From positions 1 through 64,000 of the forward strand of contig JAEUSP010000117.1 of NCBI GenBank assembly GCA_016788565.1: a stretch of DNA of 64,000 bases, read 5' to 3'. Both the position numbers and the translations under genes were made by a program. Below, piece by piece: positions 24,049-26,224 of the stretch (position 1 is its first letter; each line of letters starts with the position of its first letter). The notes under the pieces were generated by a model. That model was not told the DNA's origin. It did no database searches and saw only the letters and a list, made by a program, of their open reading frames with translations. This DNA is from Chlorobiota bacterium (GTDB lineage Bacteria > Bacteroidota > Ignavibacteria > OLB7).

Positions 24049-24060
24049 TAAATCTCTCAT

Positions 24061-24150
24061 AAGCCCTCCCTCGCCCCGCGGGGGAGGGTTGGGTGGGGGT
24101 ACAAGGCAGGAGCGCACAGAAAAAAACACGTTCTCAAAACCCGCCCTCCC
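24061..24150 (+). repeat. Left 90-bp direct repeat flanking the DUF559 gene
   Basis: It begins AAGCCCTCCCTCGCCCCGCG, continues GGGGAGGGTTGGGTGGGGGT and ends AAAACCCGCCCTCCC. A second copy with the same order of motifs is at 24620-24709, on the other side of the DUF559 gene. The CCCTCCC and GGGAGGG parts of each copy are complementary, so each can form a hairpin. A further short partial copy follows at 24143-24170. Confidence 0.7.
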
Positions 24151-24201
24151 TCGCCATGCAGGGGAAGGGGAAAACCGCAACCAACCAACCACACCACCAC
24201 C

Positions 24202-24594
24202 ATGCCGCATCATCACTGGAAATGCCCGCCACATCTATGGGCGCGACTTCGGCCAATCGCTGGCCAGATGCGAACAAACCCGACCCCAGCCGAGAAAGCT
24301 CTTTGGGTTCGGCTCCGCAACTGCCAAGTGTTGGGCTGTAAATTCAGGCGGCAACATTCCCTCGAGCGATTCATCGTGGATTTTTACTCATCCGAAGCCA
24401 TGCTGGTCATTGAAGTAGATGGAGATATTCACCTTCAAACTCAAGAGGCCGATGCGATTCGCCAAGAAGTATTAGAATCCATGGGGCTTCACGTCCTGCG
24501 TTTCACCAATGACCAGGTATTGACAGAAATTGAGGAAGTGGTGGAGCAAATTGGGATGATAGTAGAACTACGAATCAAACAGCAAGAGCCATAA
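24202..24594 (+). CDS. DUF559-family endonuclease-like protein
   Basis: 130 residues; the ATG at 24202 gives MPHHHWKCPPHLWARLRPIA, a common opening of this family. The core shows NPTPAEKALWVRLRN, then KFRRQHSLERFIVDFYSSEA, LVIEVDGDIH and VLRFTNDQVLTEIEEVVEQI. This is the small DUF559 fold, related to the very-short-patch repair (Vsr) and restriction-endonuclease-like nucleases; IEVDG would supply an acidic metal ligand and the nearby basic KFRRQH could contact DNA. Nuclease activity is inference. The gene stands alone between two 90-bp direct repeats, which suggests that gene plus repeats form one unit. Confidence 0.82.
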   Translation: MPHHHWKCPPHLWARLRPIAGQMRTNPTPAEKALWVRLRNCQVLGCKFRRQHSLERFIVDFYSSEAMLVIEVDGDIHLQTQEADAIRQEVLESMGLHVLRFTNDQVLTEIEEVVEQIGMIVELRIKQQEP

Positions 24595-24619
24595 CTAACC
24601 AAAGCCCCATTGGGCCATT

Positions 24620-24709
24620 AAGCCCTCCCTTGCTTTGCGGGGGAGGGTTGGGTTGGGGTGCAAGCGGGAGAATGCAGCAAAAGCCACCTACCCAAAACCC
24701 GCCGCCCCC
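24620..24709 (+). repeat. Right 90-bp direct repeat flanking the DUF559 gene
   Basis: It starts AAGCCCTCCCTTGCTTTGCG, continues GGGGAGGGTTGGGTTGGGGT and ends CCCAAAACCCGCCGCCCC, matching the left copy in order and length with scattered differences. It ends three bases before the end of the convergent Fic-family gene. Confidence 0.7.
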
Positions 24710-24712
24710 TCA

Positions 24713-26095
24713 TCACCTCCACACCTCACGCCACGCCTTGTATTCCGATGGCCGAAGCCGGTAGCGGGCGATATTCCCTTCATGCAGGGAGATTAGCTCA
24801 ATCTGAACGACCTCGGCGAAGCGTAAACGGTCAGATTCTGGTAGGCTTTGTGCACGATGCACGATATGGATAGAGGCACGTTTTTTATCTATCAGGCTTT
24901 TGACTATTTCACTCACGGTGTGCATCAGCACTGTTCGGTAGCGCATCCGGAACGGGTCAGGTTCGCCAAGCGATTCCTGGGCTGCCGCATAACGTGCGCT
25001 GGAACGTTCGTATGCCCAGATAAAAACGTCCCGCAAAAGGTCAACATTGTTCAACTCATACACCCCTAACAACCCGTTGATATATGTGCGGACTGGCACT
25101 TCCACAAAAGAAATTGGGCTTAGGTTCCGGCGTATCAATGGGATATTAGCGGCAAGCCGCGAGACTCGTTTATTCACATCCTCGAACGGTTGCAAATATG
25201 GAAAATGAACCATTGCAAAAAAGGCTTGTTCGAAGGGGTCGTTAATTGCTTCGGCAGTATCCAAAACCTGCTGGAAGCATTCCTCGATCACCTGCGGTCC
25301 TTCCAACGGAAAAAAGGTTGAGTTGGTGATGCCCACTGGCCGTGATCGAAGCCGCCCACCAGCTGTGGGATCGGCCAACAGGTTGTCGGAGAGCAATGCA
25401 TGAAGGTTGCAGATGGTGTAGCGGTTGAAACCAATCTCATCAGCCTGTTCCACCAGCAACTCAATGGCGGCCTTGTGATTGATAATCATCTGTGTTTCCT
25501 GCGGACTCTTTCCTTCGGGGTCTTCTCCTGCATACAGCAGCCGCTCAGTTTCCAACAGCGAGTACGTGTTTCCTTCAAGTCGGCTGGAGTTCCACGTTAG
25601 GTCAATCAGTACTCGGTTGAATATCTGCCGCACGTATGTTCCCGCTGGAAGGTCTGCTCCCAGGGGGTGCCCCACTTTCATCAGATGCCCACGAATATCA
25701 GCCGATAGATAGAACGACTCGTTGGGGCGATAGGAATCAAGGAAACTCCGGACGTACCCAACCGGTTGCCGTTTCTGGATTGGCTGGCACACAGAATCCT
25801 GAACTAACTTGCCAGCGTCCGAAAGCGGTAATACCTCTTCGGCAAAGACTTCCTCACGACCGGATGTTGAGCTCTGGCTTCCTTGATTGGTAATCTTGTA
25901 GCGGCGGGCGCGGGCTTGTCCTTCCGTTATTACCTTGTTTTGGCCAACCAAGTCATTCAGCCGCCGCTGCAATGTGCGTCGTGAAAACGTCAATTCCAGC
26001 ACCGCCAGCAACTCATCTATTGAAGCTCCATTCGGAAAACCAGATAAGGCCTGTAGGATAGCGGTTGTGTCGGTGGGCGGTATCTTCTGTGGCAT
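24713..26095 (-). CDS. Fic-family protein with N-terminal winged-helix domain
   Basis: 460 residues from the ATG at 26095; an ATG at 26116 would add seven. Residues 1-70 look like a winged helix (ASIDELLAVLELTFSRRTLQ, then RLNDLVGQNKV), so the protein may bind DNA. The Fic domain follows. An inhibitory motif of class II type is visible, SSRLEGN (170-176). The active-site loop reads QPFEDVNKRVSR (302-313), where the standard motif is HPFx(D/E)GN(G/K)RxxR: the catalytic His is Gln and the first Gly is Val, while Asn and both Arg remain. AMP transfer may therefore be weak or absent. An iterated operator-like array lies just upstream, consistent with autoregulation. Confidence 0.85.
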   Translation of the reverse strand: MPQKIPPTDTTAILQALSGFPNGASIDELLAVLELTFSRRTLQRRLNDLVGQNKVITEGQARARRYKITNQGSQSSTSGREEVFAEEVLPLSDAGKLVQDSVCQPIQKRQPVGYVRSFLDSYRPNESFYLSADIRGHLMKVGHPLGADLPAGTYVRQIFNRVLIDLTWNSSRLEGNTYSLLETERLLYAGEDPEGKSPQETQMIINHKAAIELLVEQADEIGFNRYTICNLHALLSDNLLADPTAGGRLRSRPVGITNSTFFPLEGPQVIEECFQQVLDTAEAINDPFEQAFFAMVHFPYLQPFEDVNKRVSRLAANIPLIRRNLSPISFVEVPVRTYINGLLGVYELNNVDLLRDVFIWAYERSSARYAAAQESLGEPDPFRMRYRTVLMHTVSEIVKSLIDKKRASIHIVHRAQSLPESDRLRFAEVVQIELISLHEGNIARYRLRPSEYKAWREVWR

Positions 26096-26108
26096 TGTGG
26101 GCCTGCTA

Positions 26109-26224
26109 TGTGGCATTGCAAAATCGCGCCACAAAAATAGTCTTACTGTCGCGATTCCCAGTATCGCGCCACAAAAAACATCAAATGTGTCGCGATTCTC
26201 ACTATCACGCCACAAAAAACATCA
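26109..26224 (-). promoter_or_regulatory. Iterated operator-like array upstream of the Fic-family gene
   Basis: On the plus strand TGTCGCGATTCCCAGTATCG then CGCCACAAAAAACATCA (26147-26183) is repeated 41 bases later as TGTCGCGATTCTCACTATCA then CGCCACAAAAAACATCA (26188-26224). A third, shorter version (AAATCGCGCCACAAAAAT) ends near 26139. Each full unit contains opposed half-sites, TGTCGCGAT and ATCGCGCCACA. The array ends within about 15-50 bases of the candidate starts of the Fic gene, whose product has a winged-helix N-terminus. Confidence 0.6.

Follow-up and report, generated by a model that had tools for sequence, protein, structure and literature searches.

A DUF559 nuclease gene bounded by triplex-type hairpins as a candidate minimal mobile element

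A nuclease gene between matched repeats

The DNA analysed here (the window) is a 64,000-nucleotide stretch of contig JAEUSP010000117.1 from a Chlorobiota bacterium, and the locus of interest within it consists of one small gene and the repeats on its two sides:

24061-24154, plus strand: left repeat, with hairpin CCCTCCC..GGGAGGG at 24064-24088, a mirror (triplex-type) tail GGGTGGGGG at 24091-24099 and about 50 bp more
24143-24168, plus strand: third hairpin, a partial copy that overlaps the left repeat at its end
24202-24594, plus strand: DUF559 (PF04480) nuclease gene, 130 aa, keeping the invariant residues E31, D60, E71, H77 and D84
24620-24713, plus strand: right repeat, with hairpin CCCTCCC..GGGAGGG at 24623-24647 and tail GGGTTGGGG, oriented as the left repeat

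The initial annotation had described repeats at 24061-24150 and 24620-24709, each with a CCCTCCC/GGGAGGG hairpin, and a Vsr-like DUF559 gene alone between them, and both statements hold; the third hairpin copy is an addition to that description. The repeats align with gaps at 79% identity over 94 columns (E=2.5e-17), 24060-24105 and 24619-24664 are 87% identical in an ungapped alignment, and the core repeat pattern had no match in dinucleotide shuffles of the window. The sole plausible gene between them, 24202-24594, scores 114.7 bits against PF04480 (Pfam gathering score, 20.6). Automated tail scoring left the window's two hairpins as untailed; it was direct reading that recognised the G-rich tails GGGTGGGGG and GGGTTGGGG, each approximating the mirror image of the hairpin 3′ arm and separated from the hairpin by TT. 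Directly downstream of the right repeat lies a gene for a Fic/DOC-family protein (24713-26215, minus strand).

The AF2 model of the window protein has a pLDDT of 91. By sequence, the PDB matches were 3hrl, a DUF559 structure (E=1.8e-33), 3r3p, the homing endonuclease I-Bth0305I (1e-7), and PvuRts1I (1e-3); Foldseek likewise ranked 3hrl and 3r3p (E=1e-4) best, with AbaSI/PvuRts1I among the weaker matches and Vsr (1cw0) at only E=1.2. The five residues listed above are invariant in 34 sequences, and the protein is predicted to have a nuclease fold with a conserved acidic/His site (DUF559 / PD-(D/E)XK, EDxHD, Vsr-like). No known strand-transfer domain was found in it, PADLOC defence families gave weak partial matches only (none for YcjD), and there is weak similarity to methyl-directed restriction enzymes. 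In Caulobacter, the DUF559 protein VsrA is required for SOS induction when the cytosine methylase is missing (PMC12907096), a result consistent with DNA cutting in vivo.

The source genome (4.58 Mb) has two DUF559 genes. The window's repeat type occurs once more in it, as a solo copy at C80:41635 with no DUF559 gene nearby, and the second DUF559 gene (contig C27) has on its flanks its own direct repeat of about 160 bp (93% identical, E=7e-54), whose core hairpin is found within this genome only at that gene. In the sister species, the closest relative of the window gene (67% identity) stands in a different genomic context and keeps upstream of it the same repeat of about 50 bp (88% identical), so that gene and repeat appear, from these comparisons, to move together. 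The initial annotation had also asked whether the unit is missing in relatives: in the sister species no DUF559 unit accompanies the ortholog of the upstream gene, but the downstream region differs at the place where the empty allele of the window's own site was sought.

Hairpins at DUF559 genes across genomes

A PF04480 search detected DUF559 in 35 of 61 genomes of the same class. Hairpins of GC-rich, C-first type lie within 250 bp on both sides of 36 of the 62 DUF559 genes in these relatives and on at least one side of 52, with 45 having one upstream and 43 one downstream. The proposition that DUF559 genes usually lie near such a repeat is thus borne out, and the opposite outcome, a majority of genes lacking it, did not appear. 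Neighbouring genes of the same loci have both-side hairpins in only 2 of 221 cases (p=2e-26). The same arrangement was seen at 1 of 24 GIY-YIG genes, which rejects small nuclease genes in general as hairpin carriers, and at none of 20 Y1_Tnp (RAYT) genes. Since the relatives had already been inspected once when the hairpin definition was fixed, cleaner tests come from the named-genome and plasmid sets. Among 74 named loci, from Bacteroidota, cyanobacteria, Chloroflexota, Verrucomicrobiota, Peribacteraceae and one Methanophagales archaeon (taxa as labelled, many of them MAGs), 32 have hairpins on both sides, vs 0 of 186 neighbours (p=9e-21). Twelve plasmid-collection loci together with E. coli all have a hairpin within 300 bp (13 of 13), and 7 of 13 have one on each side; these loci come from alpha-, beta- and gammaproteobacteria, including N. 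gonorrhoeae, cyanobacteria and Deinococcus, and some of the records resemble mislabelled chromosomes. Direct repeats were present in the flanks of 28 of 60 DUF559 loci vs 3 of 191 controls. In the relatives and the named set, some 16-18% of DUF559 loci are without a hairpin of this type up to 250 bp away, and G-first hairpins are rare; when a DUF559-like domain was part of another, usually larger protein, hairpins were absent (0 of 7 cases).

Several side observations belong here. Many DUF559 genes sit at contig ends (e.g., G008:C2:83, G052:C35:89 and G058:C44:132), as does the uvrC site discussed below in G061 and G064; these repeats are probably where draft assemblies break, so the DUF559 counts are likely underestimates. 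Pseudogenes and fragments with stop codons (L025, L069 and others), some of which keep their flanking repeats (L069), suggest gene turnover. A few GIY-YIG genes (L226, L216) have loop-4 hairpins of their own, CCTCCCGACTTGA and CATCCCGATTCAA, possibly another nuclease-repeat pairing.

The hairpins at a given locus are matched to each other. Their arms share 9.2 letters within a locus vs 6.1 between loci (6.07, sd 0.22), and since arms match so much better within a locus, its ends are probably of recent common descent. A mirror tail (at least 75%) accompanies 98 of 244 flanking hairpins (40%), vs 2.7% in the null. Where tails could be scored on both sides (24 loci), they point outward in 12, run direct in 9 and point inward in 3. 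The initial description of the flanks as direct repeats therefore fits the window, where both have the same orientation, but not DUF559 loci at large, where tails often point outward. Gene-less forms exist as well: among a handful inspected, L279, L281 and the K-12 alx-sstT interval carry inverted hairpin pairs with tails outward, and one genome (G045) has 38 exact CCCCTCTCCT..AGGAGAGGGG hairpins, with 0 in the reversed control, the 15 inspected including solo copies and inverted pairs.

Conserved genes and the E. coli triplex motif

DUF559 domains also occur in frame within host genes, flanked by hairpin-encoded peptides. Host genes, identified by motifs in translation, include uvrC, metH, recQ (C-terminal end), RNase HI (N-terminal end), hsdM and other methylases. 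The uvrC series, 11 genes of one genus, offers a graded set at one linker: empty in G018, G027, G067 and G068; a repeat unit with no gene in G045 and G069 (the latter cut by a contig end); the full repeat-DUF559-repeat in G036, G062 and G063; and a contig end in G061 and G064. The insertions are in frame in every case. In metH, four genomes of three genera (G039, G084, G104 and G110) have DUF559 at an identical position, the linker that joins the cap helices to the B12 domain; the same linker is empty in congeners of G039 and G110 and holds a repeat-like remnant in G100. This pattern fits either repeated insertion at one site or an old insertion with losses, and the enzyme with its extra nuclease domain presumably still works. 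The DUF559 copies at the shared metH linker (L237, L247, L249 and L260) are related to one another. In recN, an in-frame solo repeat is present in G045, G027 and G061 and the site is empty in 8 others; the G027 copy (L300) has a different hairpin, CCCGCTAAGCAGAAAAGCGGG, nested in the loop of the solo hairpin. Presence and absence at one site in related genomes, the mark of a homing endonuclease gene, is thus found at uvrC and metH. No clean target-site duplication could be resolved at recN or alx-sstT. The solo copies asked about in the initial annotation are represented by C80:41635 and by the uvrC and recN repeats.

The solo form (hairpin plus GGGGGTGAGGT) is, by sequence, the intrastrand triplex motif of Holder 2015 (PMC4666352), a purine-motif hairpin with a mirror-symmetric third strand. 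The design is the same, CCC(T/G)CNCC - loop - GGNGAGGG - TTA/CCG - GGGTGAGGG, and in that paper the motifs are abundant, linked to genome instability and present as inverted pairs, with 23 in E. coli MG1655. The difference is that its authors report no associated mobility gene and state that transposase or integrase remnants were never found near the motifs. Nuclease or DUF terms are absent from the paper's main text, and the portion accessible contains no description of the gene-carrying form or of in-gene insertions. One of the MG1655 motifs, number 9 (1351204-1351239), lies 168 bp from ycjD (b1289), whose product is a DUF559 protein (167 bits). In the part of the literature on DUF559, PF04480 and ycjD that we could consult, largely open-access, no description of a link to triplex repeats was found. 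Of the initial suggestion that this is an undescribed way of spreading intergenic repeats, the repeats themselves were therefore already known; their coupling to DUF559 appears to be new.

The E. coli sample comprised 60 records taken at even spacing down a ranking, one partial record being dropped. The median number of motif sites is 23 (16-30, n=37) in ycjD carriers, counting the ycjD site itself, vs 4.5 (2-19, n=22) in the other genomes; the contrast (p=2.5e-9) takes genomes as independent, which they are not, and is confounded by lineage. Because ycjD follows phylogroup, occurring in A, B1 and C plus ST69 and ST182, with eefRABCD elsewhere (PMC12817139), much of the contrast probably reflects phylogroup B2. 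Among the 61 relatives, the median hairpin excess is 5 with DUF559 and 0 without. The repeats are thus unequally distributed, as the initial annotation had required, with G031, G040 and G046 as exceptions that have many such hairpins and no DUF559. The fabI-sapF interval of E. coli holds either ycjD and a triplex motif or an RND efflux operon (L288, L289 and L290 vs L287), and similarity between the alternatives stops just before the triplex motif. At the zntA-tusA motif site, no empty allele was present among the sampled E. coli.

Origin and spread of the repeats

The association of DUF559 with these hairpins, and the mobility of the two, are well supported. The reading we consider probable is that a DUF559 nuclease gene standing on its own, together with the matched C-first hairpins and triplex-type tails at its two ends, makes up a minimal mobile element that spreads by homing-like cutting and repair and has gene-less copies as non-autonomous derivatives. 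Mechanistically, we infer that DUF559 would recognise the hairpin or triplex motif, perhaps while extruded or single-stranded during replication, and would nick or break it at unoccupied or partner copies; host recombination would then copy repeat-gene-repeat, or the repeat alone, into the break, in the manner of a homing endonuclease gene. Solo hairpins and inverted hairpin pairs would be the element's non-autonomous derivatives. The proposed copying would cover sites that already have a repeat, and not first insertion at a repeat-free site.

The main rival puts the repeats first, spread by RAYT, replication slippage or recombination, with DUF559 a homing-type parasite harboured in them; we regard it as rather unlikely, though it has real points in its favour. 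The DUF559 fold is a homing endonuclease fold, the three exceptional genomes are rich in hairpins without DUF559, and 2-19 motif sites persist in ycjD-negative E. coli. Per-genome hairpin excess correlates with both DUF559 number (rho 0.40) and Y1_Tnp number (0.51); the partial correlations, which ignore the kinship of genomes, are 0.30 (p=0.02) and 0.45 (p=3e-4), respectively. In G046 we observed 32 hairpins of CCCCTCTCC..GGAGAGGGG type in tandem and inverted, BIME-like clusters (e.g., C15:435032-435485 and C7:5-200), and 4 Y1_Tnp genes. Against a repeats-first origin, RAYT genes of the same genomes have their own, different hairpins of the AGCCCACGGC type and in none of 20 cases C-first hairpins on both sides; the source genome has its second repeat type at the corresponding DUF559 gene and nowhere else, and a single solo copy of the first; and the same motif accompanies DUF559 across phyla. 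RAYT as the mobiliser was accordingly rejected on the evidence of its flanks, although the genome counts do correlate. Gene-level evidence favours DUF559, while genome-level counts do not separate DUF559 from RAYT.

The parallel with RAYT transposases beside REP palindromes, drawn in the initial annotation, thus extends no further than function, given that the RAYTs of these genomes come with hairpins of another kind. Like the DUF559 units, REP/RAYT (TnpA_REP) systems and REPINs have short palindromes that bear an unpaired tag and occur both singly and as inverted pairs; they too have a dedicated gene between repeats and some insertions in repair genes. The RAYT enzyme, however, is an HUH tyrosine transposase, whereas the repeat-flanked gene here is PF04480, a PD-(D/E)XK/EDxHD nuclease, and hairpin and tag sequences differ. 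I-Bth0305I (EDxHD, Vsr-like; 3r3p) shares a homologous catalytic domain, same-site insertion in conserved genes and scattered presence; unlike it, the DUF559 units have no visible intron or intein, are read through in frame within host proteins and bring their own hairpin repeats. Rickettsia palindromic elements and CGTC REPs (PMC3733652) likewise include in-frame palindromes in DNA-repair genes with no dedicated transposase known, but they have AT pairs at the stem base and a CGTC end, and tag and stem differ from those here. Single genes with hairpins on both sides also called to mind integron cassettes (attC), a reading that was dropped on inspection.

A further alternative, in which a domesticated DUF559 enzyme serves repair or restriction (e.g., VSP repair alongside a cytosine methylase) and the hairpins are regulatory, as terminators or autoregulatory sites, strikes us as improbable. 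The Caulobacter VsrA result and the weak resemblance to methyl-directed restriction enzymes are in line with it, and in some lineages DUF559 may act in repair. The hairpins, however, are as common upstream as downstream (45 and 43 of 62), form locus-matched pairs and often have G-rich mirror tails; in-frame solo hairpins inside uvrC and recN weaken the idea further, and mobile genes typically show such patchy occurrence at shared sites. That GC-rich intergenic hairpins arise here by chance or composition can be dismissed as next to impossible: two-copy repeats are common, but the neighbouring-gene controls (2/221 and 0/186), the rarity of G-first hairpins and the zero matches in shuffles refute it.

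A broader version of the mobile-element reading is conceivable, and we hold it only tentatively: that DUF559 elements would be a separate class of autonomous mobile DNA, in which one Vsr-like nuclease would act on hairpin ends able to form triplexes, with no transposase, reverse transcriptase, intron or intein; that the triplex repeats of hundreds of bacterial genomes, E. coli K-12 included, would be their non-autonomous offspring; and that in-frame insertions would reshape uvrC, metH, recN, recQ and methylase genes. In any case, with ycjD beside a triplex motif in E. coli K-12, the DUF559 link provides a candidate for the enzyme that a widespread repeat had so far lacked. If the mobile-element reading is true, it would mean a function for a large family of "unknown function", a nuclease-only route by which intergenic repeats spread, and an origin for the short GEG-type peptides that lie in frame in conserved bacterial proteins. 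The findings point to an overlooked kind of mobile DNA, present across bacteria including E. coli.
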